From: Crambe crambe
Lineage: Eukaryota > Porifera > Demospongiae > Poecilosclerida > Crambeidae
Assembly (NCBI GenBank): GCA_963924555.1
Contig: OZ004595.1
Span: 5,202,599 to 5,266,598, forward strand
Reading direction: 5' to 3'
Length of the DNA stretch: 64,000 nt
Below, one piece after another: positions 15,096-64,000 of this stretch (positions are counted from its first letter, which is position 1; each line of letters begins with the position of its first letter). Below the pieces are notes generated by a model. That model searched no databases, was not told the origin of the DNA, and was given only the letters and a program-made list of their open reading frames with translations. Position numbers and translations under genes: made by a program.

Positions 15096-15174
15096 ACACC
15101 CGGCGTCTACCCTTTTCCTTCTTTTTGTGGGCGGGGGAAATGACAATTAATAGCTACCGTGCTGAATCACTAGG

Positions 15175-19592: not shown

Positions 19593-19692
19593 ATGTAGGT
19601 TTGCAAACTGATGATGAAACCACAAAAATTTCCAAAGTAGAAGACAATCTATCAGCTGACAGGTACAGCATTGAAGTTGACCAGGTAGTGAA

Positions 19693-28543: not shown

Positions 28544-30845
<2,302 letters not shown>

Positions 30846-32906: not shown

Positions 32907-33292
32907 CTTCATCCATTTTTAGGGTTTTTTTTTTGTTTGGTTTTGAATCACTTCTTTGGGTGTGTTTTGTCTGCAAATACAGTGAGTGCAACATGTCTCT
33001 TCTCAATCTAGAACCCATGAAAACTCCATGACAATTCATATTATTATGGCTTTTTACTTTTCATGTGTTGTACCCCATGAAACCTTAACATTTGAATAAA
33101 AATGCAAAATTCATCATATTTCATCAGTTAATCCATCCTGTTGTTCAAAGCATCTTCTTTCAGCATGCCCTTATCGGAGGTTGCACTGTGTATACTGGCA
33201 GTTATGGTAGGTTCTTTGCTTAGAGGTTTGCAGCTCTTAGTCCCGTGGGTGTGCGAGACTAAGCAGCTCTAGTGAACAAATGTGGGAAGATT
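32907..33292. other. 3' flank of the ATG8-like gene up to the gap
   Basis: T-rich DNA with an AATAAA at about 33095 that may be the polyadenylation signal of the ATG8-like gene. Missing 3' exons of UQCC1 may lie in or beyond the gap; none is visible here. Confidence 0.45.
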
Positions 33293-33492
33293 NNNNNNNN
33301 NNNNNNNNNNNNNNNNNNNNNNNNNNNNNNNNNNNNNNNNNNNNNNNNNNNNNNNNNNNNNNNNNNNNNNNNNNNNNNNNNNNNNNNNNNNNNNNNNNNN
33401 NNNNNNNNNNNNNNNNNNNNNNNNNNNNNNNNNNNNNNNNNNNNNNNNNNNNNNNNNNNNNNNNNNNNNNNNNNNNNNNNNNNNNNNNNNNN
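33293..33492. other. Assembly gap, 200 N
   Basis: A run of exactly 200 N, probably a placeholder of unknown true length. It cuts the 3' end of UQCC1. Confidence 0.99.
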
Positions 33493-33600
33493 GAGTCTGG
33501 GGAAATGCAGACTTAATGTAAACGTGCAAATTATAACCTAGTACTTTTCCCCCCTCCCCCCTCTCGCTGTCACCAACTCTTAAATGAGAGCAAAACGTAC

Positions 33601-35764: not shown

Positions 35765-38700
35765 ATGAGTTCGGATGTGCCGAAGGTGCACCAGGAGCAG
35801 TATCGAGGGTGGCTACTGAAATGGACCAACTACATCAAGGGCTATCAAAAGAGATGGTTCGTCCTATCCAATGGTCTCCTCTCCTACTACAGGTATGAAT
35901 GATTTGTGTGAGCTGAAAAAGGGTAGCTGTGGCAGAGAGAAATTTGGATCCCAATTTTTATTGGTGTCATGTCATGTTCCATCTGAGCAACAGTTGAGCA
36001 TCAACTGTTTGGACAACCAGACTGAAACTAATTCGATTAGTCACAACACTAGTTCAGTAGATCATTTACATAATACGCATATTGATTTATAGCTCCTTGA
36101 AAAATGATTGTAACACTCGTACCCAGGCCCTGCTTTTTTCATGGGGTGGAGCTACATGTCTGATCAGTACTTATTCCCAGTTCTTTTGTGGTCCCCAGGA
36201 CACAGGAGGAGATGGCCCACACTTGTCGAGGGACTGTAAACCTGGCATCGGCAGTCATAGACACTGTCGATTCTACCAACTTTCTGATCACTAACGGCCC
36301 CTCCCAGATCTACCACCTGCGTGCCCTCAACAAGGTGGACCGACAGCGATGGGTCACTGCCTTGGAGTTGGCCAAGATTGACGCCATCAAGAAACTCGAT
36401 TCAGGTATTTAATGAAGTTAAAAGTACTGATATTCTGTAGACGTTGAATGAATAACACCTCATATGAAAGTAACACCATATTTGTTATCACCAGTAGGCC
36501 AATACTGCAGGATCATCAGGCAGTAATACCAGGTGTCTAAATGACACAAACAGTCCATAGTCACTACCAACAGCACTTGTGCTAATATTCATGACACCAG
36601 AACTATATATAAGATTGATTGTTCATTATAAAGATTGTATCCTGCGATACTTAAAACTCTGGTTGGCCATTTCCAAGAATGACCAGTGACCAGCTGTTAT
36701 TCTCAGCTCTATGACACTACTTCCACTATAGACTTCACTATAGTCTTGTAGTGGTTGATCATTGCTTCCATTGATGAACAAGTTTTGTCTGGGAAAGAAG
36801 AAGAAAACTTGGGAGTAAAAAGCTGCTATACAGACTTTTCATAGCTAACACATTTTGTATACATAACATCCTAACATCCGTAACATCCTTGCATGCATCC
36901 CATTCATGTCACTGTTATCAAAAATAACACCTGGTGTTGTTCTTCAGCTTCTACAGTGTATAAATAATGGGTTATTTTGACGAATGTGGTTGCCAAAAAA
37001 ATCATTGGTTCAAACTAGAGACATGCAAATTATGCTATGTAGCATTGCCTGGATCATACCAGATTGAAATTGAATCAATAATATTGAACTTACTGGAGGG
37101 AATTCCCCAGACCCTCCAGATGGTAGCTATGGTTGTACCATTATAGAGGTGGCTCCAGCTCTGAATAATAGTTGTTGTTTTTTTGTTACCACCACCAATT
37201 ACATAGGTGGCTACTCTAATTCAGCAGTTTATACAAGAGTCAACATCAATACCTCCATATCTGCCAACCCCTGAAAGTGAAAATCCCCTATTATGCCAGC
37301 ATTGTGCTGGCATTAAGGTTCAACCCATTATGCCCAAAACTATGCCACCATAATTTGCATGTCCCTAGTTCAAACCTACTCACTGTGGGGAGGCGGTCTC
37401 TTTAGAGAGTTTGAAATAATTAATAAATTGATGGAATAAGTGTCGCTGGGACAAGGCAGAGTGGGTCGGGTGGTCTGAAGACAAAGTCTCACTCTAGAGG
37501 GAATTCCTCTATTGCTATAGCCATATATGGCCGAGACGAGACGTCTTGCATCAAGAAGAGGAAACTTTGTTGGGTCTAGACTCCTGCACATAGACACAGA
37601 AAATGCGCAATAATAAGACATGGTACACCTGATAATAATCAGATTTAAACAGGTGATCTTTTGTTTTATTGTTTTAGTGCAGCTGCTTTTATGGTACACA
37701 CAGTTATGTTCATTATGTATTTATTTATTTTGTTGTTGTGCACAACAGATGAGTCATATGGTCAGAATGAGTCTGCCGATGAGGCCGAGGGAACTGCTGG
37801 AACAGGTGCATCCACGGTAGTCAAGGACCTCCTAGCTGCTCTCCAGGAGAAGCTGAAAGAACTGAACAAGGCATACGATTTAGTGGTGAAGAACATACAT
37901 CAAGTCTCCAAGGTGGCTACTGACTTGGAGAGTGATTCTGGCAACCCTAAGGGGGAGGGTGCAGCTTCTACCCCCAAACCAAAGGAGAAACTCGCTCTGC
38001 TGAAATTAACTTCGGGAGCAATGGTGAAGGTGAGTAAGTCTATCAGTTGGAAATGACCAGTGACCCAGCATGCATAGTTCAATACCTTAATTACAAAGTT
38101 AGAACTCGCTCTGCTGAAAATAACATCAGGAGCAATGGTGAAGTTGAGTAAGTCTATCAGTTGGAAATGACTAGTGACCCAGCATGCATAGTTCAATACT
38201 TTAATTACAACAGAATGAATGACCTCGTCTATGTCGTACGCATGTAGTAAACTCACTTTTCCAGCCAAATTTGGTATCGATAACTTTTGGTCTGGAAATT
38301 TGGTGTAGAGACATGGAACATATTCGTAGAGAAAATTATAAAAAATATTCGATTTCTATAATTATGACTCTATATTATTATGTTTGTTCTGTCCAGGCTG
38401 CTGAAGAATTTATATCACAAGCACACGACATAGAACGTCGATGGTCTCGTGCGCTTGCACATGAACACTCCCTTCGTCTCCAGCTCCAAGAGAACATGGA
38501 GGCGTTGGCCAATCAGATGCATGGACTGGAGGACGAGGCAAGACTCTCAATACATCCTGTGGAACATGGTACAACATCTAGTAGTACCATTCCTGAACTT
38601 GGACCTGACACGTCAACAACTCGTGATGAACCTGATGGGAAGAAATCAGCTATACCTGAAGGAAAGTCTGAATCTGAATCAGATGATGATGATGCATTTT

Positions 38701-41109
38701 TTGATGCTCCGGAGGTTTCTGCAGAAGAACTGAAGAAATTTACTCATGACTCCACTTCAATGGCATCAGCTTCAGGTGAAGATGTCAGAGAGCAACATCC
38801 TCTAATAACGTCAGACCACAGAATGACAGTGAGTTTCAATCTTCTAGTTGTAAGGTTCACGAGCATTACCAGTTAGTATCTTTTCTTACATTTAATTCAT
38901 GCGCCCAATATACCACCTACGTATTTCAGAATAGAGGTCTCACCCTGATTGGATAAAAGCTTAGAGCACACCATCAAACGTACATCAAATCAAACGCATG
39001 ATCCCTAATACATCCTGAAGGGCTTGCAATAACAGGGTCGTTATTGTGAGCCCTGTACCCTGTTATTGTGAGCCCTGTTATCTGGTATGTGAAATCAGTC
39101 TGAATACTGTTGACTGGTACACAATAACATGGACATACTGTATGCAATCGATAATTATGATTATCCTATATACTATGTAAGTTTTATCTTTGTCTTGCCA
39201 GGTGCCTACTGGCCCTCCTCCTAGCTTCTTTGAGAATCTTTCTGGTCCCACCTTGGCTGCACGACGGACTGCCATTCCCCCAAAACCCAATCACAGACTC
39301 AACCTTTGGAGCATCGTCAAGAACTGCGTCGGAAAGGACTTGACCAAGATACCAATGCCTGTGAGTGGTGGCTGGCTTGCAACTCGTCGTACACTCATTT
39401 TCATTTTGGGAGAGGGACCTCATTTGATGGGTTTTAAACTAGATCACACACTTGGAGGTAGTTTCATTGTGTTTTATGGAACAGTAATTCCTGATTAAGA
39501 ATGTTCTTACTTCAAAGGAAATCTGTAGTATCTACATACAGTGGAAGTCCTCTATATCAAAAATGTCCAATCACCTGACTTCTGCTATGTCATGTGACTT
39601 GAGTTTATCATGTGATTTTTCCCATATGTAGGTGAACTTTAGTGAACCTATATCCATGTTGCAACGGATGACAGAAGACTTATTGTACTCTGACCTGCTG
39701 TCCAGAGCTGCAGAGTGTTCCAGCACGTTGGAGGAAGCTGGTTACGTGACTGCCTTCTTTTGCTCCTTCTATGCCTCCACTGCCACCAGAATAGGAAAGC
39801 CGTTCAACCCGTTGTTGTACGAGACATACGAGTGTGACCGCAGAGCTGAGCAAGGATGGAGGGTTATTTTTGAACAGGTAGAGGGGTCATTTATGTACTT
39901 AGGACGATGTTAAGCTTAACTAAGTATAGAGGTCAAAGGTTAAAGGTCAAGGCAGGTCTATAAATTTGAATGGTTGTCCTTGCCACTCAAGCCTATAGTT
40001 ATCACAAACCAAAAGCAAAGCAAAGCAGTACAAGAACATTATAAAGACCTATTGATTATTTTCTCAGGATTAATTTTAGTTCCTGCCTGAATGGGCTAGT
40101 CACCACCCTCCATGTCATGTACACACTCCATGTACATGTACACACTCCATGTACATGTTGTGTACACAATTGTATGTAGCTTGTAATTTGCATGTCAGTC
40201 ACATCATGTGAATAAGAATGAATTGGTTGGTAGGTAGGTCTACTTGAATGGTACATACATACATACACATACATACATACATACATACATACATACATAC
40301 ATACATACATACATACATACATACATACATACATTACATACATACATACATACACACACACACACTTGTCAACCCTTTACCAACCCAAGGGAAGGAACAG
40401 AATAATTCATTATGATTCGCATAGTGCATAGCTTCAGGCATTTTGGGATGACTAGAAGTAGCGCAAGTCCAATAACCATCCAAAGGGTCATGGGGAGACT
40501 GCCTTGAGAGCTCTGGATGGGTGTGGCAAGTGAAACTGCCATGAGAGCCCTGGGTGGGTGTGGCAAGTGAGACTGTGCCGTGAGAGCTTTGGGTGGGTGT
40601 GGCAAGTGAAACTGCTGTGAGAGCCCTGGGTGGGTATGGCAAGTGAAACTGCCGTGAGAGCCCTGGGTAGCGAAACTGTGCCATGAGAGTTCTGTGTGGG
40701 TGTGGCAAGTGAGACTGCTGTGAGAGCTCTGGGTGGGTGCAGGATAGAAGGTCAAGATTTAACAAGTGAAATCTGTGAATTTGATTTTGCTGTTGTTACT
40801 GGTGCAGGTCAGTCACCACCCTCCCATGTTTGCAATGCACACGGAACACAAGGAGTGGACCTTCTGGCAGGAGTTCACTATTTCCTCGGAGTTTCGTGGG
40901 CAGTATGCCGTGTGTTACCCTATAGGCGGTTCCCACCTTGTCATGCATCGTACTCAGAGCCACTACACCTCAAATAAAGCCACCATCACAGTCCACAGCA
41001 TCATAGTGGGAAAGATGTGGCTTGATCAAGTACGTATATACTTAATCATTAACAAGCCAGTTCTCTCAGCCTCATATCCAAACTTGTCTTCTTGGATAAA
41101 ATGATTTAT

Positions 41110-46394: not shown

Positions 46395-49300
46395 CTAGAC
46401 ATACTGAAATAGTGAGATTTTTCTGAGTTTCTGGGACAACTGATCATAAGTGGAGGAGGCCCCTTCCTTGGAGGTCCACTTCTTCAACATGGAGAGGGCT
46501 TGGACTTGTTGGGATTGCCCCTCCCCCTCTGTCTTCACCTTGTCAATCTCTTCACTGGTCAGGGAGAGGAGGGAGGCCAGGAATGGCCATTTGGGTCCGA
46601 CCACTTCAGCAAACAACTCCAGGAAGTCATCATCTGGTGTGGAATCACATCTGTTAGGGTCAAGTAGCTTCTTCTGGAGCTCAATATGAACACCTGCAAA
46701 GAGAGCAGTACATAGTACCTATGTAGCCAAATCTTCACATACATTCTATTTAGCTCACAAGTAGCATGCAGCCTTTGAGCATGAGGAGGTGGTTATTGTT
46801 CTATACTCAACTGGAATGTTGGAGGTGACTAGTTCCCCCATTAGTTAAGTGCAGCTGTCAATCTAAATCTAATATTATGTAACTAGGTTATTATTCACTT
46901 ACTGTGTTCTTTCTCAATCTCATTTACAGTGGCTTTTTTGCCTATCTCCTTCAGTGCTTCTACGAGATGCCACCAGCATGGAGGGTCCAGGGAGGAGCTC
47001 ATCCAAGCCCTCACCACTTCCCTTGTTCTCCGATCTGCATCACTAGGGTGGTTTAATTCTATGGCCTCAAGAACTCCTTGGGGGATTTTGAGGTGGAGAC
47101 CAAGGTCAAATAGAGGTTTAACTATGTCTTTAAGATAATGGAGGACTGAGCCAAAATCAATAGGAAACAAGTTGTCCCAATGAGTGAGTTTACGCATGCA
47201 TGTCAGCTTTGAACGCTCCATGTACTTTTTCCCTGAAACGCTGAGAACCACCTCCCTATCCTTTGGAGATATAAGTGCCATTTCTACATCTTTCATGGGA
47301 AATAAATGATCTTTATCAAGGTTATATGATTGATGAATCACATCTAAAAGATAAAACTCAGGTTTGATGGAGTGGCAGAACTCTGCCTTTGCCTCCATCA
47401 CACAACAGATTATATCATTAAAGACACTAATACAAATCTCTGTTCTATCCTTAACACTCTTAGTGATGACAACAACTCCCTTACTGTCATCAACCAATTC
47501 AACCATACACTCCACCCCCTTCTCACTCAACCAGTGCACCCCAGTCTTCCACATGGTGCAAAACCTCCCAATATGCTCATTACAGCGAATAAATGCTTGA
47601 TGTTGTCTATCAGGATGGGAGAGGGCAAATCTGAAAACCATTCTGAGGAGAAGGACATGAAGGAAACGTGGGGGGAAGTAGTCATTAGGATCAGTGCATG
47701 AAGCAAACCAACCAATGCTGTAACTATTATCGGGAGGAGTTCTCCATGACACCTCACTCTTGTCTCCTAAAATGAGAGCTGGAAAGAACAGAAGAGATTG
47801 GGACCCAAGTGAAGAGTGTGATACGGAAGAGAAAACTACCACATCTCTTTGTTTAATTTCTTGGCAGTACTGAAGTCGAATAAGGACTTCCTTTGTGCAA
47901 TATTCAGGCAAGATTTTTAGTAGAAGATTTTCTGGAATAACTCCAATATCAAGTGATAATACACTTTCAAGTTTGCACATATCCTTTAACCTTTGAACTC
48001 CATATGAAGAAAATAAATCTTTGTGTACTATGTTGGTAAGTTTTGAAATGTTCAATACTATGTGAGGGTTACTCTCATCAGCTTTCTCTCCCACTAATAA
48101 TAAAATGCCCACTTCATGGAGTTCATGCAGATAGGGTATGAGTGTTTCAGTTTTGTTTGGTAACTGTACCCCAGTGTCCTCTATGTGGGACACTATGGTC
48201 TCTACAGAACAAGCAACGACATTGTTAAAATCCTTTTCCAGCAACCCTAAAAGTATGCTTGCTTCAATTGTTAGTTTGTAACGCTCAGATTTGCTGATCA
48301 TGCTTGTGATTTTTTTCTGGAGTCTACCTATTTCTTTAGATCCAGGTTTGCGGCAGTCAAATGTAAAATACCCCATATACTGAACAAGTGTATGTGATTC
48401 AGAAATATCCTTGTGGAATTGTGCAAATCTTTCTCTGCATTTCTTTACCACTTCTTTAGTAACTGAATCAGAGTGGCTACCAACTGCAATGAGGAAAGGC
48501 TTTTCACTGAATTTCTGGTGTTGTATGAATGAAAACCAATAGTGCAGCAATTTCTCTGTGGTCATCACATCCTTCCTTAAATCAGCTACAACAATGAATA
48601 TGTTGTCACCTTTTCTTGAGGAAGCAAGATTCTCAAGGATGGCAGCATGTGAGGAGTAGTACTCAGGGTCTCCAGCAAAGTCATAGAACATGACTCTCCC
48701 ATAGTGTTTACTGACATGGATACTGGGGATTATACCGGCAGTGTGGGGAGGCACTACAGCTTCAGACACTTTCCGTAGAAAATCAAAGAAACCCTCTCTT
48801 CTAAGGGACTCTATGAGAGTGCTCTTCCCTGCACCAGGGTTACCAATGACAAATACCCTAGTCATGTGTTGTGCACCCGAATACTTCTTTTTAGCATGTT
48901 TTTGCATGATGCCATAATTGACCAGTATTTTATCTTGGTTTTGTTTTATATATTGGTCTAATACTAATCTTGCATCACCAGTTGCTAGGTCAATAGGAGT
49001 CTTTCCAGAAGCATTCCTTATCAGGATAGGAGCATCATGCTGTAAAAGAGTCTTAATACATTCACTATGGCCATGTACTGAAGAGATATGAAGAGGAGTG
49101 TTACCATCCTCATCAACAATCAAGGGAGACATGAATTTACAAAGTGTCTTTGTGAGATTAAAGTGTCCATTATGACATGCTGAGTGTAGCGATGAGTAGC
49201 CATTACCACCTCTGACATTAATATCACAACCAAACTTATCAATTAGAAATGATGTTATCTTTTCATCCCCACTCAATGCTGCTACATGAAGTGGCATGTT

Positions 49301-52300
49301 ATTTTCATCATCCCTAGCATTGATATCAGCATTGTAGTCACATATAAGAGACTGAACTAAACTAATATTTCCTCCTCTACATGCTTCGTGTAGCAAGGAT
49401 CTCCCTAAACCACCTCTGACATTAATATCACAACAACTAATATCATTGATTAGAGATAATACAACCTCTTCCTTCCCATTCAAGCATGCTACATGGAGTG
49501 GTGTGTTATTGTTATCATCCCTAACATTGGCATCAGCATGGTAGTCATGTATCAGGGATTGAACTAAAATAAGATTACCTCTTTCACATGCTCTATGTAG
49601 GATGAATGTACCACTAACATTAATATCACAATCAAACTCATTAATCAGGGACAATGCAACTTCTTTTTCCCCATAAATTATTGCTACATGGAGTGGTGTG
49701 TGTTTTTCATCATCCCTAGCATTGACATCAGCATTGTGGTTATTTATTAATGATCGAACTAAACTGACATTACTTCCTATGCTTGCTTGATGGAGTAAAG
49801 ATCTACCTGAAGAACCCCTGATATTAATATCACAACCAAACTCATTTACTAGAGAAAATACAAGCTGTTCATTCCCATTTAATGCTGCCACATGGAGTGG
49901 TGTGTTATTATAATCATCCATGACATTAATATCAGCATTGTAGTCTGTTATTAAAGATCGAACCAAATTAAAATCACCTTTTTCACATGCTCTGTGTAGC
50001 AAGGATTTACCAATAACACCTTTATCATTAATATCACAACCAAATTCATTGATCAGACATAAAATAACCTCTTTATTCCCATTTAATACAGCCAAATTGA
50101 GTGGTGTGTCATCATAATCATCCATAGCATTAATATCAGAATTATGAGCAAGTATTAGGAGTCGAACTAAAAAAGAATCACCTAGTTCACATGCTTGATG
50201 TAGCAAAGTTCTACCTGAAGCACCTCTGACATTAATATCACAACCATGCTCATTTATTAAATACAATGTAACCTTTTTTTCCCCATATAATACTGCCACA
50301 TGTAGTGCTGTATCATTATTATCATCCCTAGCATTAATATCAGCATTATGGTCACATATCAGGGATTTAACTAGACTGACATTACCTCCTTTACATGCTA
50401 GATGTAGCAGAGATCTTCCTAAGTAATTCCTGACATTAATATCACAACCAAAATCATTAATTAGAGACAATGCAACCTCTTCCTTTCCACGTGATACTGC
50501 CATATGGAGTGGTGTATTATTGCAAGCATCCCTAATATTGATATCAGCATTATACTCACGAATTAGGGATTGAACTAGACTAAGATCACCACTTGCACAT
50601 GCTTTATGCAATAAAGAAATACCTAGTCGATTACACTGATTAATATCACACCTATGCTCATCAATCAGATACAATGCAACTTCTTTTTGCCCGTTCAAAG
50701 CAGCCACATGTATAAGTGTGTTATCTTTATCATCCCTAGCACTGATATCAGCACTGTGGTCATTTATTAATGATTGAACTAAACTGACATTACCTCCTAT
50801 GCATGCTTGATGGAGCAAAGATCTACCTGAAGAACCCCTGATATTAATACCACAACCAAACTCATTTATCAAAGACGATACAACCTCTTTTTGCCCATTC
50901 AAAGCAGCCACATGTACAGGTGTGTTACCTTCATCATCCCTAGCACTAGAATTGTGGTCATTTATTAATGATTGGATTAAACTGACATTACCTCCTATGC
51001 ATGCTTGATGGAGCAAAGATCTACCTGAAGAACCCCTGACATTAATATCACAACCAAACTCATTTATCAGAGACAATGCAACCTCTTTTTGCCCATTCAA
51101 AGCAGCCACATGTACAGGTGTGTTATCTTCATCGTCCTTATCACTGATATCAGCATTTTGGTCATTTATTAATGATTGGACTAAACTGACATTACCTCCT
51201 ATGCATGCTTGATGGAGCAAAGATCTACCTGAAGAACCCCTGACATTAATATCACAACCAAACTCATTTATCAGAGACAATGCAACCTCTTTTTGCCCAT
51301 TCAAAGCAGCCACATGTACAGGTGTGTTACCTTCATCATCCCTAGCACTAGAATTGTGGTCATTTATTAATGATTGGACTAAACTGACATTACCTCCTAT
51401 GCATGCTTGATGGAGCAAGGATCTACCTGATGAACCCCTGACATTAATATCACAACCAAACTCATTTATCAGAGACAATGCAACCTCTTTTTGCCCATTC
51501 AAAGCAGCCACATGTACAGGTGTATTATCTTCATCATCCCTAACATTGATATCAGCATTGTGGTCATTTATTAATGATTGAACTAAACTGACATTACCTC
51601 CTATGCATGCTTGATGGAGCAAAGATCTACCTGAAGAACCCCTGACATTAATATCACAACCAAACTCATTTATCAGAGACAATGCAACCTCTTTTTGCCC
51701 ATTCAAAGCAGCCACATGTACAGGTGTGTTATCTTCATCGTCCTTATCACTGATATCAGCATTGTGGTCATTTATTAATGATTGGACTAAACTGACATTA
51801 CCTCCTATGCATGCTTGATGGAGCAAAGATCTACCTGAAGAACCCCTGACATTAATATCACAACCAAACTCACTTATCAGAGACAATGCAACCTCTTTTT
51901 GCCCATTCAAAGCAGCCACATGTACAGGTGTGTTACCTTCATCATCCCTAGCACTAGAATTGTGGTCATTTATTAATGATTGGACTAAACTGACATTACC
52001 TCCTATGCATGCTTGATGGAGCAAAGATCTACCTGATGAACCCCTGACATTAATATCACAACCAAACTCATTTATCAGAGACAATGCAACCTCTTTTTGC
52101 CCATTCAAAGCAGCCACATGTACAGGTGTGTTATCTTCATCGTCCTTATCACTGATATCAGCATTTTGGTCATTTATTAATGATTGGACTAAACTGACAT
52201 TACCTCCTATGCATGCTTGATGGAGCAAAGATCTACCTGAAGAACCTCTGACATTGATATCACAACCAAACTCATTTATCAGAGACAATACAACCTCTTT

Positions 52301-53032
52301 TTGCCCATTCAAAGCAGCCACATGCACAGGTGTGTTATCTTCATCATCCCTAGCACTGATATCAGCATTGTGGTCATTTATTATTGATTGAACTAAACTG
52401 ACATTACCTCCTATGCATGCTTGATGGAGTAAAGATCTACCTGAAGAACCTCTGACATTAATATCACAACGAAACACAATTATCAGAGACAATGCAACCA
52501 CTTTTTGCCCATTCAAAGCAGCCACATGTACAGGTGTGATATCTATATTATAGCCAAACTCATTAAAGAGACAAAATGCAACATCTTCTTTTCCTTGATG
52601 TGCTGCCACATGGAGTGGTGTGCTGCCAACAGGCAGGTTGTCATGTATCAGTGTTTGTACTAAACTAGCACTGCCTCCAATACATGCATAATAAAGAACC
52701 TTTCTATTGATAGTTTCATTTAAATCTAAAGGACAATCATATTCAGTCACTAGACTGACTGCAACATCTTTCTGTCCATACAAACATGCAGTCATTAGTG
52801 GTATGCAACCATTCTTATCCTTAATAACCATATTGGCTTTGAAATTAGATATTAGCCATCTTACCATATCTAAGTGACCTGCAGCACAAGCATAATGCAG
52901 TGGAGTCTGCCCATTGGAATCAGTGCAGTCTATATTATCATACTTGCCACTTCCCAACAACCTTCTGACCTTGTTCATGTCACCTGACTTGACAGCCATA
53001 TGGAGGGCAGTCGAAGTAGTAGAGGAGGCCAT
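46395..53032 (-). CDS. Ankyrin-ROC-COR-Death-Death protein, 2 exons, 2142 aa
   Basis: Exon 1 is 46903-53032 and exon 2 is 46395-46693, joined in phase 1. The start is MASSTTSTALHMAVKSG, matching the paralogue start; a longer in-frame start 16 codons upstream is less likely. About 40 ankyrin repeats fill residues 1-1360. A ROC (Ras-of-complex) GTPase-like domain follows, with P-loop VIGNPGAGKSTL near residue 1395, a switch-like FYDFAGDPEYYSSH and VGSHSDSV in the base-recognition place. A COR-like region comes next (LPYLHELHEVGILLLVGEK). Residues about 1975-2040 form a Death domain (LHLKIPQGVLEAIELNHPSD), and exon 2 encodes a second one (WPFLASLLSLTSEEIDKVKT). The nearest known architecture is DAPK1 without the kinase. 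A role in Death-fold signalling is inferred. The middle ankyrins are almost identical 67-residue pairs. Confidence 0.88.
50700..52530. repeat. Near-identical 195-204-bp ankyrin-pair tandem array
   Basis: Nine successive units (starting about 50881, 51081, 51284, 51481, 51686, 51889, 52089, 52292 and 52497, each at CAACCTCTTTTTGCCC or a variant) encode two ankyrin repeats each (NTPVHVAALNGQKEVALSLI and SGRSLLHQACIGGNVSLVQS). Two linker types, NADISDKDDEDN and NSSARDDEGN, recur in an interleaved order. Confidence 0.92.
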
Positions 53033-53658
53033 TATTTTTTTGCAAAGAAAGAGCCAGTAGTAGAGAACTTGCCTTCCCAAAGTTAGTTGTTGAATAATGC
53101 AGGGGGGTGGAAAGGTGTTACCATAGTGATTATCAAATTCATAGTGTATAGCTGGCTAGTCACATGATCAAAAGAAATGCATCATCATGTATAATTATGA
53201 ATATTTTTCAATGTAGCTACATATCTCATACTGTTTATTACAGCAAACATAGACTGGCAGAAATATGCTAGGCCTGGGAATGAAGCTACAGGGTCATTAT
53301 ATACTTTCAGTGATCATATACGTAGGAAAGGCTCCACAGGGGGGACAAGGGTGTGATCCCCAAGGTTCCCAACTTTAGTAGCTCTATAATAATAATTCTA
53401 TAATAATAATAATAACCCAAAATCTCCTTAAGAATGCACCAAATTTGAAATACATATGCTCACGATACTAACTTTTGTCGAAGCTGAATATACTAGGTAG
53501 AATCACCGTATGAAACAGGGTTGCCAGACATTCTAACTACCAGCACATAACAGAACTATAACAAACCAAAACAGGTTTAGGGAGATCAAATCGAAACTTT
53601 TGTATAACTTGTACACTTTGAATGAAATCACATGATCAAGGGAAAATGCAGAGCCACC

Positions 53659-53977
53659 AGGGGCGGATCTAGCCCTTGAAATTGACAGTCTAAATCACTT
53701 CCGCGCGGGGAAATTTATCTGACCACGCCCACACATTTGCTCAGCCACGCCCATTTCGAAGTTGATTGATGAAGAATTCTGATGGCCCAGCTATCTAAAG
53801 CTTCATAACATTCAGCTGTAGTCAGTAGCCTGTAGCTAGCTGCTAGCAATAGGCTGAAACCTAATCAAATGCGGAGTGTAAAATCAGTCTGTGCACGCGC
53901 TGACGATCTTTACCTAATATCAAAAATATTGACCGTCTTCTGGAACACGGAAGAAGACTGGCTAAATCCGCCCCTGG
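53659..53977. mobile_element. MITE with CAGGGGCGGAT ends
   Basis: Ends CAGGGGCGGATCTAGCC and GGCTAAATCCGCCCCTG are inverted with one mismatch, flanked by GCCACC. Paralogous unoccupied sites occur at 55888 (AAAGCCACCAATAGG) and 43566 (CAAGCCACCAAAGG), which prove insertion. No coding capacity. Confidence 0.85.
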
Positions 53978-54631
53978 CCACCAAAAGAAAAGTTAACTGG
54001 TGTTACATGCAGGCACAAATTAAATATAAGTATGGGGTCTTTAAAAATCTTTCTGAGTGAAGAAATAGCTATGAACAAGGCCCAAAGGAAAGAGTAAATA
54101 GGTAGAGGATTGGTATGTGTAGGGAGTTGGAAGATAACAAGGAAGTGGGAATGATGGTAAACACAAATTTGAGGTTGATAATCTACCACAATACATAAAC
54201 AAACTCTAAAGGAAGTACACAAAGAAAGAAGTGGATGCAATAGGAAGTAAAAAGTAGGATATGGAGCATTCCACTAAGGTGTTAAGGCATACTTAGTGTT
54301 ATTATCCCTTAGATAATTAGAGATTACTTAGCTACACGACACCTTAGATAATCATGCAATAATCTAAGGTGTTATTTTTACTGTCATAATAATGATTATG
54401 GGAAGACTCTACAGAAATAATTAAGATACTATCTTAATTCTTATATTATTCTTATGTGCCACTAGTCAACAGTGACTTATGTACGTAACTACAAAAAAAA
54501 ATATTTTGGATCTTTTGGATTTTCAGCACACTGATAACTAGTGGTGTTTAAACTGGCTGTGCCTGTCTATGAAAAAGGTGTGCTATAGCTAATAATGCCA
54601 TAGTTGCCGGTTAAGTGTGATACCGTACTCG

Positions 54632-54994
54632 CGCGCGTTATTAGGCGTATGCGCTTATATATATCTCCACAGGAAGCAAACCACCGCTTAACAGCGAGTA
54701 TGCGCCTAACGGCGAGATGGATAATTTAATTTAGGTGGGCATTAATTAGAATATCGCGTGAAGCGAGCGTGAAGAACCAGCAGTAAGTGGCAGTTCTGTG
54801 CAGAAACACAGTTTTAAGTGAGGTAAGCTTAGCAAAGAGTTGCTAAACCAGTAAGAGAACACAAATAAGCCAGAAGAAGCAGAAATAGAGCTTATAAGTA
54901 AGGAGCGCTTAACAAAGGGTAGTTAGTGCAGCAAGAAAACCAGCGCCTAACAACGAATGTGCGCTTATTAGCGAGATGCGCCTAATAACGCGCG
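54632..54994. mobile_element. 363-bp inverted-repeat element, CGCGCGTTATTAGGCG ends
   Basis: CGCGCGTTATTAGGCG (54632-54647) is repeated in inverted form at 54979-54994. Internal variants such as ATGCGCCTAACGGCGAGATG (54700) and CGCCTAACAACGAATGTGCG (54945) make a subterminal array. It is noncoding and notably CpG-rich for this AT-rich region. Confidence 0.7.
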
Positions 54995-55100
54995 ATTACA
55001 AATTACCTAGAGCTAGCTATGTAGGTAGCTATAGGGTGTAGTTCTTGGATAGATATCACAATATTATATTCTTCCTTCTCTGCTTCAAGTACCCCGCAAA

Positions 55101-57827
55101 TCATTATGAGCACCTATAAAACAATAATTATGTGACGTCCAAATGTTATCTTTGTTATGATTATGCAGTACCATAGTAACTGTCTGAAAATGGATGAACA
55201 CAGCTTCACACTAGACATCATCAGTTTGGACCATGTCGACTCGAGTAGCTCCCTGTTAATAATCACATACATAGCTAAACTGCTGGTCATAATGGAGGCA
55301 AAGTTAGGGTACTTGTTATAGGAAGGTTATGTCTGGTAGCAGCCATTAGACATCATCACTGTTATCAGAAGAAATATGTCATCCTTCCAATGAGAATATT
55401 AACAGCAACACTATCAGTATGAATCACAATACACCACACTCAAGTATTGGTGGAGCATCAGGACCCTTACCATCGGGACTCTGATGAAATACCAATCAAT
55501 AGTGAAGTACTTACTGATGAAATTCATACATAAAACTCTTCTTGAAAACTATATAGCTAACAGGTTTAGCTGGCTGAAGACAGCTGGATTGAAGCATTAG
55601 TTGTAGCTGGTTGAAGCATTAATTAGAAAATTAACTGTAGCCGGCTGAAGCATTAGTTGGAAAATAAACTGTTGTGAATTGGTGAAGCATAGCTGGCCAT
55701 GGATAAAATCAGTCCTCAAAACACATTCATTTGGCATCCTCTGATTGAATGTCAGAGTATTGATTTGAAACAAACACAATATTTATAATACATATCACAT
55801 GATAGTTTGACAATAGTAGGGGAAAACCAAATCTATAATATTGAAACTTGTGCATAACTTGTACAAATAAATCACATGATCAAAAGAATGCAAAGCCACC
55901 AATAGGAAAGTTAACTGTTGTTATAAAGTATGTAGGCACAAATTAAACATAGTAAGTATTGGGTCTTGAATACAAGTTGTGGTAACCAAAGTGCACGCTA
56001 GCTAGCAATACAACTTTAGACTGAACTCAACAATGACACACACAACACTATGATTACAGCTTAGAATTACGTCAGGAAGTGACACAAAAAATAACTACAA
56101 ATGCTTGCATGCTTTAATTAGAACAAGTTTAATATTAGTCAGTCAATGGATGAACACAGTTTCATAGATCTTTAACAAGATATCAGCGTTGAACATGTCC
56201 AGCTTTTATACACTTGTAGCTCCCTGTTGATAATCACATTCAATCATTATCCAAACCCTTAAAAATAACTAGTAACATACATAGGTACTGAGAGATGGTC
56301 ATAATGGAGTGGGGGACTGGATGCTTCCTCTTCTTACTGTTAGGAAGGTTATGTCTGGTAGCAGCCATTTGACATCATCATCATCACTGCTATCAGAAGA
56401 AATATGTCGTCCTTCCAATGAGAATGTTAACAGCAACCAATGGGAAGACCTGTCAGTATGAACAACAATACATAATACTCAATATTGATGGATCAGGCAC
56501 ATACTTACCATCAGGACTCTTCTACCAAAGTTGGAACACCAGCTGAAACTATTTTTAACTGATGGAAGCTATGGCTGGCAGGATGAAATACACTGACTGT
56601 AGTTGGATGGCTGGACAGTTTCATAGCTGAAGTATTATAGTCGATAGATTGAAGTATTAATTAGAAGATTAACTGTAGCCGGTTATAACTGTAGCCAATT
56701 AATTAGAATATTAACTGTAGCCGGTTGATTGAAGCAAAGATTAAATGTAGCCGGTTAATTAGAAGATTAACTGTAGCTGGTTAATTAGAAGATTAACTGT
56801 AGCCAGTTGATTGAAGCGAAGATTAACTTTTTGGAGCATTAATTGGAAGATTAACTGTGGCCAGTTGGTTGAAGCGAAGATTAACTGTAGATTAACTGTA
56901 GCCAGTTGGTTGAAGTGAAGATTAACTTTAGCTGATCGGTTGGAGCATTAATTGGAAGATTAAATGTAGGTTAGTTGGAGCATTAATTAGAAGATTAACT
57001 GTAGCCGGTTAATTAAACACAATATTGAGTTTTTTGGGACAGTCAGTCACATGACTACACCTACATGATAACAATGCACATAATGAGTCTACAATACATT
57101 ATACAACACATCATGACTTACCTTGGCCAGGTCAGATGTCAAGTAGAAAGATGCTGTAATGATTATTGTACAGGATAAAAGCTGAGGAGACAGCTGGTTA
57201 AATGCTGACTAGACTGTTTAATTGTAATTAAAGTATATACAACTGAATAAGGAGATGATACACATTTAGGAATGGGATGGGGAAAATGCTGAGAGCAAAA
57301 GATTGAGACGATACAAGTAAAGGAGGATGACAAGCACAAGAAAGAAGCCATATCAGGTGCACATTTATGAATCAAATAAGAATTGGTACATAGAGCAGAT
57401 GACAAATAATGGTGTCATACAGGAGTGTAAAAGAGATACATAGTGATAAAGAAGAGCTTGAGAAAAGAGATCAATAAACTAAGAGAGATAGCATTCCAAA
57501 TGAGAGAGAGAGAGTTGGCAGAAATGATGTCATACTGGTAGGAGTGTATAAGAAAATAAAAGAGAGAGAGAGAGTGAAGAGATAGCTATGAACAAGGTCT
57601 AAAGGAAAGAGTAAGTAGGTAGAGGATTGGTATGTGTAGGGAGTTGGAAGATAACAAGGAAGTGGGAATGATGGTAAACACAAATTTGAGGTTGATAATC
57701 TACCACAATACATAAACAAACTCTAAAGGAAGTAAACATAGAAAGAAGTGGATGCAATAGGAAGTAAAAAATAAATCACAAATAGATAATAATATACTGC
57801 AAAATATCAGACATCACCTCCTATTAG
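55101..57827. other. Spacer of the second duplication, distal copy
   Basis: No gene supported. It is colinear with 43700-46394, with the same minisatellite family at 55560-55690 and 56630-57020. The segment 57590-57780 is the third copy of the AACAAGGT.AAAGGAAAGAG block next to each ROCO 3' end. Confidence 0.6.
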
Positions 57828-60800
57828 CTAGACATACTGAAACAGTGAGATTTTTCTGAGTTTCTGGGACAATTGATCATAAGTGGAGGAGGCCCCTTCC
57901 TTGGAGGTCCACTTCTTCAACATGGAGAGGGCTTGGACTTGTTGGGACTGCCCCTCCCCCTCTGTCTTCACCTCGTCAATCTCTTCACTGGTTAGGGAGA
58001 GGAGGGAGGCCAGGGATGGCCATTTGGGTCCAACCACTTCAGCAAACGAATCCAGAAAGTCGTCATCTGGTGTGGAATCACCTCTGTCAGGGTCAAGCAG
58101 CTTCTTCTGAAGCTCAATATGAATAACTGCAAAGAGAGCAGTGCATAGCACCTATGTAGCCAAATCTTCCCATACATTCTATTTAGCTCACAAGAAGCAT
58201 GCAGCCTTTGAGCATGAGGAGGTGGTTGTTGCTCTATACTCAACTGGAATGTTGGGGGTGACTAGTTCCCCCATTAGTTAAGTGCAGCTGTCAATCTAAA
58301 TCTAATATTATGTAACTAGGTTATTATTCACTTACTATATTCTTCCACAATCTCATTTGAAATGGCCTTTTTGCCTATCTCCTTCAGTGCTTCCATGAGG
58401 TGCCACCAGCATGGAGGGTCCAGGGAGGAGCTCATCCAAGCCCTCACCACTTCCCTTGTTCTCCGATCTGCATCACTAGGATGGTTCAATTCTATGGCCT
58501 CAAGAACTCCTTGGGGGATTTTGAGGTGGAGACCAAGATCAAATAGAGGTTTAACTATGTCTTTAAGGTAATGGAGGACTGAGCCAAAATCAATAGGAAA
58601 CAAGTTGTCCCAATGAGTGAGTTTACGCATGCATGTCAGCTTTGAACGCTCCATGTACTTTTTCCCTGAAACACTGAGAACCACCTCCCTACCCTTTGGA
58701 GATATAAGTACCATTTCTACATCTCTCATGGGAAATAAATGATCTTTATCAAGGTTATATGATTGATGAATCTCATCTAAAAGATAAAACTCAGGTTTGA
58801 TGGAGTGGCAGAACTCTGCCTTTGCCTCCATCACACAACAGATTATATCATTAAAGACACTGATGCAAATCTCTGTTCTATCCTTAACACTCTTAGTGAT
58901 GACAACAACTCCCTTACTGTCATCTACCAATTCAACCATACACTCCACCCCCTTCTCACTCAACCAGTGCACCCCAGTCTTCCACATGGTGCAAAACCTC
59001 CCAATATGCTCATTACAGTGAATGAGTGCTTGATGTTGTCTATCAGGATGGGAGAGGGCAAATCTGAAAACCATTCTGAGGAGAAGGACATGAAGGAAAC
59101 GTGGGGGGAAGTAGTCATTAGGATCAGTGCATGAAGCAAACCAACCAATGCTGTAACTATTATCGGGAGGAGTTCTCCATGCCACATCACTCTTGTCTCC
59201 TAAAATGAGAGCTGGAAAGAACAGAAGAGATTGGGCCCCAAGTGAAGAGTGTGATATGGAAGAGAAAACTACCACATCTCTTTGTTTAATTTCTTGGCAA
59301 TACTGAAATTGGATAAGGACTTCCTTTGTACAATATTCAGGCAAGATCTTTAGTAGGAGATTTTCAGGAATAACACCAATATCAAGTGACAATACACTTT
59401 CAAGTTTACACATATCCTTTAAATTTTGAACTCCATCTGAAGAAAATAAAGCTTTGTGTACTATGTTGGTAAGTTTTGAAATGTTCAATACTATGTGAGG
59501 GTTACTCTCGTTAGCTCTCTCTCCCACTAATAATAAAATGCCCACTTCATGGAGTTCCTGTAAATATGGTATGAGTGTTTCAGTTTTGTTTGGTAACTGT
59601 ACCCCAGTGTTCTCTATGTGTGACACTATGATCTCTACAGAACAAGCAATGACATTGTTAAAATCCTTTTCTAGCAACCCTAAAAGTATGCTTGCTTCAA
59701 TTGTTAGTTTGTAGCGCTTGGATTTGCTGATCATGCTTGTGATTTTTTTCTGGAGTCTACCAATTTCTTTAGATCCAGGCTTACGGCAATCAAATGTAAA
59801 ATACTCCATATACTGAACAAGTGTATGTGATTCAGAAATATCTTTGTGGAATTGTGCAAATCTTTCACTGTATTTTGTTACCACTTCTTTAGTGACTGAA
59901 TCAGAGTGGCTACCAACTACAATGAGGAAAGGCTTTTCACTGAATTTCTGGTGTTGTATGAATGAAAACCAATAGTGCAGCAATTTCTCTGTCGTTATCA
60001 CATCCATCCTTAAATCAGCTACAACAATGAATATGTTGTTACCTTTTCTTGAGGAAGCAAGATTCTCAAGGATGGCAGCATGTGAGGAGTAATACTCAGG
60101 GTCTCCAGCAAAGTCATAGAACATGACTCTCCCATAGTGTTTACTGACATGGATACTGGGGATTATACCGGCAGTGTGGAGAGGCACTACAGCTTCAGAC
60201 ACTTTCCGTAGAAAATCAAAGAAACCCTCTCTTCTAAGTGACTCTATGAGAGTGCTCTTCCCTGCACCAGGGTTACCAATGACAAATACCCTAGTCATGT
60301 GATGCGCACCCGAATACTTCTTTTTAGCGTGTTTTTGCATGATGCCATAATTGACCAGTATTTTATCTTGGTTTTGTTTTATATATTGATCTAATGCTAA
60401 TCTTGCATCACTAGTTGCTAGGTCAATAGGAGTCATTCCAGAAGCATTTCTTATCAGGATAGGAGCATTATGTTGTAACAGAGTCTTAATACATTCACTA
60501 TGGCCATGTACTGAAGAGATATGAAGAGGAGTGTTGCCATCCTCATCAACAATCAAGGGGGACATGAATTCGCTAAGTGTTTCTATGAGATTAGAGTGTC
60601 CATAACGACATGCTGAGTGAAGCAATGAGTAGCCATTGCCACCTCTGACATTAATATCACAACCAAACTCCCTGATTAGACATAATGCAACTTCTTTTTT
60701 GCCACTCAATGCAGCCACATGGAGTGGCATGTTATTTTCATCATCTCCAGCATTGATATCAGAGTTATGGTCATGTATAAGGGATTGAACTAGACTAACA

Positions 60801-63163
60801 TTACCCCCTATACATGCAAGATGTAGCAAGGATCTACTCAAAACACCTTTAACTTCAAGGTCACATCCGAAATCATTTATCAGAGACGATGCAACCTCTT
60901 CTTTTCCATACAATGCTGATATGTGAAGTGGTGTGTTATTTTCATCATCCCTAACATTCATATTGGCATTGTGGTCTTGTATTAAAGATTGAACTAAATG
61001 AATATCACCTTCTTCACATGCTAGATGTAGCAAGGACCTATCTAAATGACCCTTGACATTAATATCATAACCAAACTCATTTATTAGAGATATTGCAACC
61101 TTTTTTTGCCCATTCAACACTGCTACATGGAGTGGTGTGTTATTTTGATCATCCCTAGCATTGATATCAGCACTGTGGCCATGTATTAGGGATCGAACTA
61201 GATCAACATTACCTCCAGAGCATGCACTATGTAGCAAGGATCTACCTAAGTCACCCTTGACAGTAATATCACAACCAAACTTATTTATCAGGGACAACAC
61301 AACCTCTTTCTTTCCACTCAATGCTGCTACATGGAGTGATGTGTTATTTTCATCATCCCTAGCATTCACATTAGCATTACAGTAGACTATCAGGGATTCA
61401 ACTAGACTAAGATTACCACTTTCACATGCATTATGCAATACAGATCTACCTGAACCACCCCTCACATTAATATTACAACCATGCTCTACTAAACACAATA
61501 TAACCTCTTCATTTTCACTCAATGCTGCTACATGGAGTGGTGTGTTATTCTCGTCATCCCTAGCATTAATAGCATTATGGTCACATTTCAGGGATTGAAC
61601 TAGACCAACATTACCTCCAGCACATGCACTATGTAGCAAGGATCTACCCAAACGACCCTTGAGAGTAGCATCACAGCCACATTTTTGTATTAAGGACAAC
61701 ATAACCTCTTTCTTTCCATACAAAGCAGCCACATGGAGTGGTGTGTTATTCTCATCATCCTTAACATTGGCATCCGCATTGTAATCATGAATCAGGGATT
61801 GAACTAGACTGACACTACCACTTTTGCACATTCTGTGTAACAGTGTTTTGCCTAGAGGATCTCTGATATTAATATCACAACAAAACTGATTTATCAGGAA
61901 CAATGCAACCTCTTTCTTTCCATATAAAGCAGCCACATGGAGTGGTGTGCTATATTCATTATCCCTAGCATTAGTATCAGCATTTTGGAAATATATAAGG
62001 AATTTAACTAGACCAATGTTACCTCCAGCACATGCATTATGTAGTAGGGATCTGCCCAAATAACCCTTGACAGTAATATCACAACCAAGCTTATTTATTA
62101 GGAAAAATGCAACCTCTTTCTCTCCATATAAAGCAGCCATGTGGAGTGGTGTGTTATTTTCATCATCCCTAGTATATATATAAAAGTCAAATTTAAGTAT
62201 CAGGGATCGAACTAGATTAACATTACCTCCTCTACATGCGTAATGTAGCAAGGATCTACCCAATCTACCACTGACATTAATATCACAATTGAATTCATAT
62301 ATTAGACATAATGCAACCTCTTCCTTTCCACTTAAAGCAGCTACATGGAGTGGTGTGTTATTTTCATCATCCCTAACATTTATATTGGCATTGTGGTCAC
62401 GTATAAGATATTGAACTAAATCAACATCACCTTTTTCACATGATAGATGTAGCAAGGACCTACCTAAATGACCCTTGACATTAATTAGAAATAATGTAAC
62501 CTCTTCCTTTCCAGCCACATGAAATGGTGTGTTATTTTTATCATCCCTAGCAGTAATATCAGCATTATGAACACGTATCAGGGATTGAACTAGACTTACA
62601 TTACCTCCTATAAATGCACGATGTAGCAAGGATCTACCCAAGCTACCCTTGACAGTAATATCACAGTCGAACTGATTAATTAGGAACAATGCAACCTCTT
62701 TCTTTCCATGCAAAGCAGCCAAATGGAGTGGTGTGTCATTTTCATCATCCCTAGCATTGGTATTAGCATAGTGGCCAAGAGTCAAATATTGGACTAAGCT
62801 AACATTACCTCCAATGCATGCATAATGAAGAATTGTTTTATTTCTTTTAGATAATACATCTAAAGGACAATGATATTCAGCCACTAGACTGAGTGCAATA
62901 TCTTTCTTTCCATATAAACAGGCAACCATTAGTGGTATGCGACCACGGTTATCCTTAGCAAGCATATCAGCTTTGAACCTAGTTATTAGCATCTTAACTA
63001 TACTAAAGTGACCTCCACGACAAGCATAATGTAGTGGAGTCTGCCCATTGGAATCAGTACAGTTAACATTGTACTTGCATCTTTCCAGTAACCTTCTGAC
63101 TATATTTACTTCACCTGACTTGGCAGCTAGATGAAGAGGGGTGACATCAGTGGATGTAGCCAT
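57828..63163 (-). CDS. Ankyrin-ROC-COR-Death-Death protein, 2 exons, 1708 aa
   Basis: Exon 1 is 58336-63163 and exon 2 is 57828-58126, joined in phase 1. It is the paralogue of the gene at 46395-53032. The start is MATSTDVTPLHLAAKSGEVN. About 28 ankyrin repeats precede the ROC domain, whose P-loop VIGNPGAGKSTL lies near residue 964. DFAGDPEYYSSH and VGSHSDSV follow, then the COR-like region, the first Death domain (residues about 1541-1604) and the exon 2 Death domain (WPSLASLLSLTSEEIDEVKT). From the ROC domain onward the two proteins are almost identical, while the ankyrin halves differ in number and sequence. Both genes lack disabling changes. A kinase domain, present in DAPK1 and in LRRK-type ROCO proteins, is absent in both. 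Confidence 0.88.
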
Positions 63164-64000
63164 TATCTGTATAATAACATCGAATAGTCATAGCTACAAT
63201 GATTAGCTACCATGTGTACAATTTTTGTCATCTCACAATTGATTTATTTATGATTTTACATTGCCATATAGCAAAGCACAAATGAATAGCCACCATTTAA
63301 AAGATGGCAGGAGCAAAATAATATTAGCTAGTTAGATTTACAAAATATTAGACCTCACTCATGCAGTTATTGTTCCAAGTGGCAACAACTTACAAAAGAA
63401 AACACACGTTACAATCAATGAAGATGAGATATACGTGGGTAGCAGTTGACATGTGAGGAACAAGCTTGTCTGGTAGACCTGACTATTGTTATGAATCACC
63501 ACACTTACTATTAGCATTATCAGTATCAGTGTGTATCATGTGATTCCCTTTCCATACGATTGCTACATATGAAAATGTTTTTCCCATTTTGGTGAGGTGA
63601 GTATCTGGAACCTTAAATAGAACAATGCAATACTCAACAGTAGCTGTACATTAGGAAATTAAGTTGTATGGGTCAGACATCATGTTACATTGCATCAAAA
63701 AAGATGATGAACAAGTAAAGGAAAAAATATTTATTCTAAATAAAAAAGAGAAGTAGGGATGGCTGTCAGGATAAGTTAGTACTATAAGAGTTTAGCAAAA
63801 TTAGGGAATAGTTAGCATAGCTAATACACAGCTATTGTCATCAAAATTGTGCATTTGCTGATTTGTTTCGTTTCCCAGCTTCCTGAATTCCAAGGTGGTG
63901 CTAGTTTACCTCCTTAACTCATTTACACAACATCTGACTAAAAACACCTAACAACAAATGAATAGATAAAATGTAGTGATTATTTAGGACTCTCTCTGTT
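63164..64000. other. 5' flank of the distal ROCO gene
   Basis: AT-rich DNA with no supported gene or element. It should contain the promoter of the gene starting at 63163, but no core element was recognised. Confidence 0.4.

Follow-up and report, generated by a model that had tools for sequence, protein, structure and literature searches.

The 64,000-nucleotide stretch analysed here, which we call the window, comes from the sponge Crambe crambe (assembly GCA_963924555.1, contig OZ004595.1, positions 5,202,599 to 5,266,598 of the forward strand). It carries two minus-strand genes, A and B, that combine ankyrin repeats, a Roc GTPase domain and two Death domains. Each begins as a long open reading frame, 2086 codons in A and 1619 in B, that meets a stop just past a GT splice donor. 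Splicing from this donor (GTAAGT, preceded by an A) to a TTTGCAG acceptor removes 209 bp in both genes and makes an in-frame, phase-1 join to a 107-codon frame. The predicted products are 2142 amino acids (aa) long for gene A (Met at 53032, counted from the first letter of the window) and 1708 aa for gene B (Met at 63163). Both read ankyrin–Roc–(COR)–Death, then the phase-1 intron and a second Death domain on an exon of its own. We refer to the first Death domain as D1 and to the second as D2. The features, all on the minus strand, are as follows.

46903–53032, minus: gene A exon 1, with ankyrin array, Roc, COR-like region and D1 (open frame, Met, donor; Pfam)
48866–53005, minus: gene A ankyrin array with a short linker, 39 units (Pfam ankyrin families, family hidden Markov model (HMM), period-204 tandem repeats)
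48467–48859, minus: gene A Roc GTPase domain (Pfam PF08477; family profile against LRRK2 Roc)
47180–48286, minus: gene A COR-like region (position after Roc; profile–profile alignment to COR-A-bearing proteins)
46904–47191, minus: gene A first Death domain, D1 (weak Pfam Death match; family profile against FADD)
46694–46902, minus: gene A intron, 209 bp, phase 1, GTAAGT to TTTGCAG (position and phase kept in paralogues)
46395–46693, minus: gene A exon 2, second Death domain, D2 (Pfam Death; family profile against RIPK1)
58336–63163, minus: gene B exon 1, with ankyrin array, Roc, COR-like region and D1 (open frame, Pfam, donor)
60299–63136, minus: gene B ankyrin array with a short linker, 27 units (Pfam, family HMM, period 204)
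59900–60292, minus: gene B Roc GTPase domain (Pfam PF08477)
58613–59719, minus: gene B COR-like region (evidence as for gene A)
58337–58624, minus: gene B first Death domain, D1 (weak Pfam Death match; family profile against FADD)
58127–58335, minus: gene B intron, 209 bp, phase 1 (splice-site pattern, paralogue comparison)
57828–58126, minus: gene B exon 2, second Death domain, D2 (Pfam Death)

An earlier note on this DNA had proposed the order ankyrin–Roc–COR–Death–Death, with the last Death domain on a separate exon. Pfam and the family profiles uphold this order, with the COR part as COR-like only, and the 209-bp phase-1 intron does precede D2 in both genes. The same note had called the genes twins, which they are not. 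The tails of A and B are 94% identical. In a FastTree tree of the genes read, A lies nearest to a paralogue labelled L009 (support 0.984; 99% identity in the tail) and B to L011 and L012 (0.95). A and B are two of the 18 loci of one array and two of at least 63 in the genome.

Ankyrin families match exon 1 of both genes at E-values of 1e-107 or below, and the arrays are largely made of a 204-bp two-repeat unit. Pfam matches to adenovirus E3A, a phage membrane-helix family and DUF4160 within the array of A were dismissed as repeat artefacts, since their summed scores pass while no single stretch does. None of the array matches to NCBIfam models of bacterial ankyrin proteins reached its cut-off, and they reflect nothing more than the ankyrin repeats; PADLOC models gave nothing beyond short P-loop-level matches. 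A sequencing or assembly artefact is unlikely, because introns and arrays vary in length between paralogues, the sequences differ as well, and the assembly has a reported quality value (QV) of 58.1 (PMC12166358).

The splice junction and the two Death domains

An in-frame junction at the same place and in the same phase is present in 25 of the 26 family members read. In a first set of 20 genes (A, B, 15 from the array on chromosome C18 and three from C14), the donor–acceptor pair was found in 19; the sole failure, L016, carries a premature stop. A second set comprised three genes from C17 and one each from C1, C15 and C6. Five of these six were recognised by pattern and the last, L031, by eye, with a GTC donor. 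Six genes (L017, L018, L020, L022, L023 and L028) have more than one in-frame acceptor, and for these the one nearest D2 was chosen. The introns range from 51 to 1169 bp, and 18 of the 25 are not a multiple of three (L031 measures 56 bp by eye). A DNA search with the intron of gene A returned only seven copies, all on C18. Because phase and frame stay constant across introns of such different lengths, we take the junction as good evidence for exon 2 being part of the gene. The earlier note had asked whether exon 2 is spliced to exon 1 at all, and the comparative splice-site pattern speaks for joining. The idea of exon 2 as a separate small gene was rejected on account of the conserved junction and the placement of D2 after D1 in 61 of the 63 loci counted below.

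Retention of the introns that start at 46902 (A) and 58335 (B) would give a single-Death product, since the phase-1 donor brings a stop 5 nt on. Such a product could be a regulated isoform or a mere consequence of the donor consensus. In a stronger form of this idea, exon 2 would seldom be joined, the protein would stop after D1, and D2 would be a rare alternative. Read-through past the donor does soon reach a stop, 5 nt downstream in A and B and no more than 56 nt downstream in any of the 19 genes with a recognised donor, but chance alone would often place a stop close behind a phase-1 GTRAGT donor. The junction is also kept across introns of varied length, and the ratio of nonsynonymous to synonymous substitution rates (dN/dS) of D2, 0.29, indicates coding constraint on the very exon that would be left out. 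We find this explanation scarcely credible.

Pfam assigns D2 to the Death family at E = 1.4e-11 in A and 1.3e-12 in B, and a D2 family profile matches the Death domain of RIPK1 (E 3e-8). At the level of sequence, these matches bear out the Death domain that the earlier note had proposed for exon 2. D1 is weaker by Pfam, falling below the 22.6-bit cut-off in both A (17.0 bits, E 0.0059–0.0065) and B (13.6 bits, E 0.073). Across the family, 14 of the 16 members scanned match Pfam Death in D1 at E up to 1 (best 1.2e-7), and a 16-sequence D1 profile matches the Death domain of FADD at E 7e-8. The D2 alignment held 23 of the 26 genes read (L017, L040 and L041 were left out). By their likeness to solved Death domains, D1 and D2 would provide the Death-fold output domain that is one of the traits of NLRs. 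We also considered whether D1 and D2 are recent duplicates of each other; hhalign gave E 0.056 at a probability of 1%, which is not significant. Since the profiles have no significant mutual match, D1 and D2 look like two kinds of Death domain and not a fresh duplicate.

The Roc domain, the COR-like region and their neighbours

The Roc family PF08477 (cut-off 27 bits) scores 28.0 bits in the whole open reading frame of B. In A it just misses in the whole frame (26.5 bits) and passes when the tail is scanned alone (28.7 bits). All 22 aligned tails match it at E up to 1 (best 2.3e-8); this alignment drew on the 26 genes read, with L016, L026, L040 and L041 left out. A profile of the tail family matches the LRRK2 Roc domain in the PDB at E 2e-6. 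The P-loop residues, a DFAG motif and the aspartate of GSHxD, which we take to be GTPase motifs, are invariant in the 22 tails.

About 370 residues separate Roc from D1. No match to COR-A (PF16095) was found by Pfam in this region in 22 members, the PDB search of the Roc–D1 region gave nothing, and a first hhalign run against six other COR proteins also came out negative. The 150 COR-A matches listed genome-wide include none of the 63 loci. A wider Roc–COR profile, to which two distant paralogues were added, aligns from Roc through COR-A (hhalign 97%, E 4.9e-11, query positions 78–339 of 675), with Roc supplying part of the score, few effective sequences on either side, and COR-A-bearing proteins of the same genome as targets. 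A profile search of seven COR proteins matched two of them, L034 and L036, over positions 120–320. We therefore call the region after Roc COR-like; that it is a COR domain is likely, not proven. In one paralogue, L026 (6221–9139), the tail matches as two overlapping pieces (query 1–613 and 275–650) within a single 3044-codon open frame, as if the COR-like segment had been duplicated.

No kinase was found by Pfam in the open reading frames of A and B. Nor does a kinase-like motif occur on either strand in 53033–57827 or in 63164–64000, where the search upstream of B stopped at the end of the window; the patterns used are those we presume to mark kinases. The claim of the earlier note that the genes lack a kinase thus holds for the frames and flanks searched. 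Pfam likewise detected neither leucine-rich repeats (LRR) before Roc nor a kinase after COR in A or B, the traits of LRRK1 and LRRK2. The genes do have the arrangement that marks the DAPK1 group, ankyrin repeats before Roc–COR and a C-terminal Death domain (with COR as COR-like). They depart from both the DAPK1 and the LRRK orders, as the note had said: in A and B we found no N-terminal kinase, no LRR and no kinase after COR. The note had also drawn a parallel with NLRs. This stands for the layout only, as no significant NACHT or STAND domain was detected; two of the 22 tails match NACHT, at best with E 0.12, while Roc matches all 22. No TRADD-N family is among the Pfam matches listed for the open reading frames of A and B and the 22 tails.

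A multigene family in the sponge genome

The genome was searched with the tail of B as a single query at E < 1e-130; 63 of 351 candidates were scored in this one 143-Mb genome, and the counts are lower bounds. At least 63 loci lie on six chromosomes (plus one fragment of one locus): 20 on C17, 18 on C18, 18 on C15, four on C14, two on C1 and one on C6. D2 was searched with the D2 of B and that of a C15 member, and pairing by position used the list from B. In 61 of the 63 loci a D2 exon follows on the same strand at a distance of 53 to 1234 bp; the exceptions are C14:5052717 and C15:1442916. The genome count proposed in the earlier note thus reveals a family of its own in one sponge. We read 26 of the genes, and the remaining loci are known as matches; among the 18 C18 loci, C18:5542413 is unread. 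Because the most distant member, L040 (39% identity), keeps Roc (23.5 bits, below the cut-off), D1 (Pfam Death E 0.12), D2 and the intron, the layout is older than the arrays.

One could suppose that the arrays are mostly decaying copies of little function, homogenised by gene conversion. Seven of the 61 paired loci do have a stop in the tail or in D2, and the frame of L022 has no Met. Both parts are uninterrupted in the other 54, open frames of more than 1500 codons contain 44 of the 63 loci, and the tail domains are under purifying selection, so we rate general decay as very improbable. In 105 pairwise comparisons among 15 C18 genes, dN/dS came to 0.29 in both the COR-like region and D2, 0.35 in D1 and 0.43 in Roc, values from which we conclude that each of the four is under coding constraint. 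The first 120 aa with ankyrin repeats give 0.69 (14 genes). Mean dS in the C18 genes differs between domains (Roc 0.09, D2 0.13, D1 0.23, COR-like 0.28), and this unevenness suggests patchy gene conversion in the signalling part.

The ankyrin part varies in length. The family HMM counts 39 units in A, 27 in B and 10 to 47 over 16 C18 genes, in which this part spans 417 to 1652 aa (the lower figure is from L022, the frame without a start). We compared 3918 pairs of units from 13 genes, with L009, L017, L022 and the C14 genes dropped. Positions that we take, from the designed-ankyrin literature, to be contact sites were chosen beforehand. At these sites the ratio of nonsynonymous to synonymous differences (pN/pS) was 0.66 (bootstrap 0.59–0.74), against 0.40 (0.36–0.44) at other positions.

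Of the 78 matches found with the D2 of B, 17 are unpaired, one of these being the second half of a paired locus. Four orphan D2-like copies on three chromosomes (C16:2369536, C16:2370472, C15:1550071 and C6:2577725) have equal scores and one TGA each; the exon was perhaps carried by a mobile or duplicated segment. At least 150 further COR-A matches (149 over the cut-off; the best 150 of 339 candidates), none within the 63 loci, lie at sites including C1:8.1–9.4 Mb, C3:7.49–7.83 Mb, C5, C8, C9 and C11:7.08–7.28 Mb, many of them in dense arrays of 600–850-codon frames. Six of these genes were read (L034–L039). After L039 comes a Death frame (E 1.5e-7), and L038 has weak Ig-like matches at its end.

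The rest of the window holds several other features. An NLR-like gene or remnant on the plus strand at 19681–22802 has strong LRR_6 repeats and a weak NACHT match (E 0.13); the frame upstream of it looks Death-like by eye and has no Pfam Death match. A block seems to be doubled, judging by eye, with POT-family transporter frames at 1310–2829 and 15166–16902 and a near-identical 285-codon frame at 6490–7347 and 24748–25605 (no Pfam match where tested). At 11305–12564, on the plus strand, is a frame that resembles a transposase and contains a TNP-like RNase H domain (E 2.4e-20). Exons of an oxysterol-binding protein (36164–39913, plus strand; Oxysterol_BP E 9.4e-28, PH below cut-off) are a few kb from gene A. 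At about 29760–30180 and about 33270–33500 there are a long CT/GA microsatellite, which gives SLSL/ERER frames, and a stretch of X in the translations that corresponds to a run of N.

A receptor-like reading and its known relatives

Domain order, splice sites and frame, GTPase motifs, purifying selection, copy number and variation in array length are all observed. Taken together, they lead us to favour, with a probability of roughly 0.55, an intracellular, receptor-like sponge ROCO family that is tandemly amplified and has a two-Death output. In joining a variable array to a conserved switch and a Death-fold output, the proteins are reminiscent of NLRs and similar receptor families. The long ankyrin array of variable length would bind a ligand or partner. 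Binding would release the Roc–COR GTPase, which, if it behaves like other members of the Roc family, would dimerise and switch with GTP. The switch would cluster the FADD-like D1 and the RIPK1-like D2, and these would in turn recruit FADD-like and RIPK1-like Death-domain adaptors. The output would be cell death or inflammatory-type signalling, and an immune role is conceivable.

Several results weigh against this reading. No class of ankyrin position has a pN/pS clearly above 1: contact sites range from 0.61 to 1.01 over six strata, and the value of 1.01 comes only from the closest between-gene pairs. The faster change at these sites fits a relaxed or mildly varied surface and is no proof of diversifying selection; in its strict form, such selection on the array, tested as proof of a receptor, was not found. 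The COR assignment has three negative direct searches (Pfam, PDB and the first hhalign run) to one positive profile alignment. The two most distant members read, outside the 22-tail alignment, keep the P-loop and have DLSG instead of DFAG. Of the 15 C18 genes aligned, 12 have a CAG directly before the ATG, including B but not A, so there may be an upstream 5' exon. Ankyrin repeats and Death domains are also found in scaffold and cytoskeletal proteins, and besides RIPK1 the D2 profile picks up Ankyrin-3 (E 1e-6) and THO complex subunit 1 (E 1.4e-6) by their Death domains.

Alternatively, the proteins could be scaffolds, related to DAPK1 but kinase-less, that serve in the control of the cytoskeleton, adhesion or apoptosis and were amplified for reasons other than recognition. 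Ankyrin–Roc–COR–Death is the order of DAPK1 minus its kinase (PMC6320773), D2 resembles the Death domain of ankyrins, and dN/dS stays under 1 for the tail and for almost all ankyrin strata. At least 63 loci, with ankyrin parts of such different lengths among the C18 genes, would nevertheless be unusual for a housekeeping scaffold. DAPK1, moreover, carries an N-terminal kinase and a single Death domain; here a second Death domain is present in 61 of 63 loci. We consider the scaffold explanation unlikely.

Somewhat less probable still is that the same receptor mechanism is tuned not to pathogens but to tissue fusion or resident bacteria, making the proteins sensors of self and non-self or of symbionts. 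Large tandem arrays and variable repeat number would suit such a role. Sixteen binned microbial genomes are reported from a Crambe crambe metagenome (PMC12166358). TRADD-N expansions, often with Death-like domains, have been tied to sessile marine animals, and sponge allo-incompatibility is named among cell-suicide settings (both PMC8195603). The present evidence does not set this role apart from that of a pathogen sensor.

A broader form of the receptor-like reading is tentative, and we would sooner doubt than accept it. The ROCO superfamily may fill an NLR-like place in this sponge, as an expanded repertoire of intracellular sensors in which a Roc–COR GTPase, not a STAND ATPase, nucleates Death assemblies and FADD-type and RIPK1-type Death domains address two adaptor pathways. 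It draws on the 63 or more ankyrin–Roc–COR–Death loci, 61 with a second Death domain, together with the 150 or more further COR-A matches. If the family acts as the receptor-like reading proposes, an early-branching animal links a variable sensor to Death-fold output through a Ras-like GTPase in place of a STAND ATPase. Receptor-type switches for cell death would then have arisen with more than one kind of nucleotide engine. This would also give a context for the original role of Roc–COR in DAPK1 and LRRK2.

Each domain pairing has a precedent, and no description of the whole ankyrin–ROCO–Death–Death architecture was found in the open-licence literature searched, as far as its sources were available. 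ROCO proteins are described as forming three groups, of which the DAPK1 group is marked by a Death domain, with a kinase in front (PMC6337361, PMC6320773). That group shares with the sponge genes ankyrin repeats, Roc, COR, a C-terminal Death domain and the lack of LRR (PMC6320773, PMC6337361). The sponge genes differ in having no detected N-terminal kinase, an extra, unlike Death domain on its own exon, and dozens of tandem copies. Their ankyrin arrays are also longer than that of DAPK1.

NLRs and the Death/TRADD-N proteins of the sponge Amphimedon likewise combine repeats with a Death-fold part in one protein and show lineage-specific expansion. The genes described here have a Roc–COR GTPase in place of NACHT. 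Amphimedon is reported to have 357 TRADD-N proteins of the NCOA6 clade, with ankyrin repeats among the commonest partners of Death and TRADD-N (PMC8195603); the order in our family, ankyrin N-terminal and Death C-terminal, is the reverse of the one described there. Two sponges raised ankyrin- and Death-containing transcripts, unassigned to this family, on microbial stimulation (PMC6208332).

Roc–COR joined to Death or CARD is known from placozoans, where at least 17 ROCO genes are present in Trichoplax and some of them encode CARD or Death domains (PMC4104024). The partners described there are CARD, Death, TPR, LRR and an AAA ATPase, with no ankyrin array or double Death named, and the copies are fewer. 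Sea anemone NG3 and the MyD88-like and TLR-like proteins of Aplysia also combine Roc/COR with Death or death-like domains, according to surveys of immune genes (PMC5094078, PMC9334734). NG3 differs in its kinase, TIR and SH3 domains and the Aplysia proteins in TIR, and their descriptions include no ankyrin array or double Death. Oomycete and Gonium ROCO proteins share the N-terminal ankyrin repeats, with no Death domain mentioned for them (PMC11378527). The LRR-ROCO genes of brown algae, proposed to be receptors, resemble the sponge genes in being an expanded ROCO family with a varying repeat array (PMC11378527). As described, they have LRR and not ankyrin repeats, carry the repeats on separate exons, lack Death and, in N. 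decipiens, are dispersed and not tandem. At 9 to 47 genes per species they form the largest ROCO repertoire we met in the literature (PMC11378527), against the 63 or more loci counted here.

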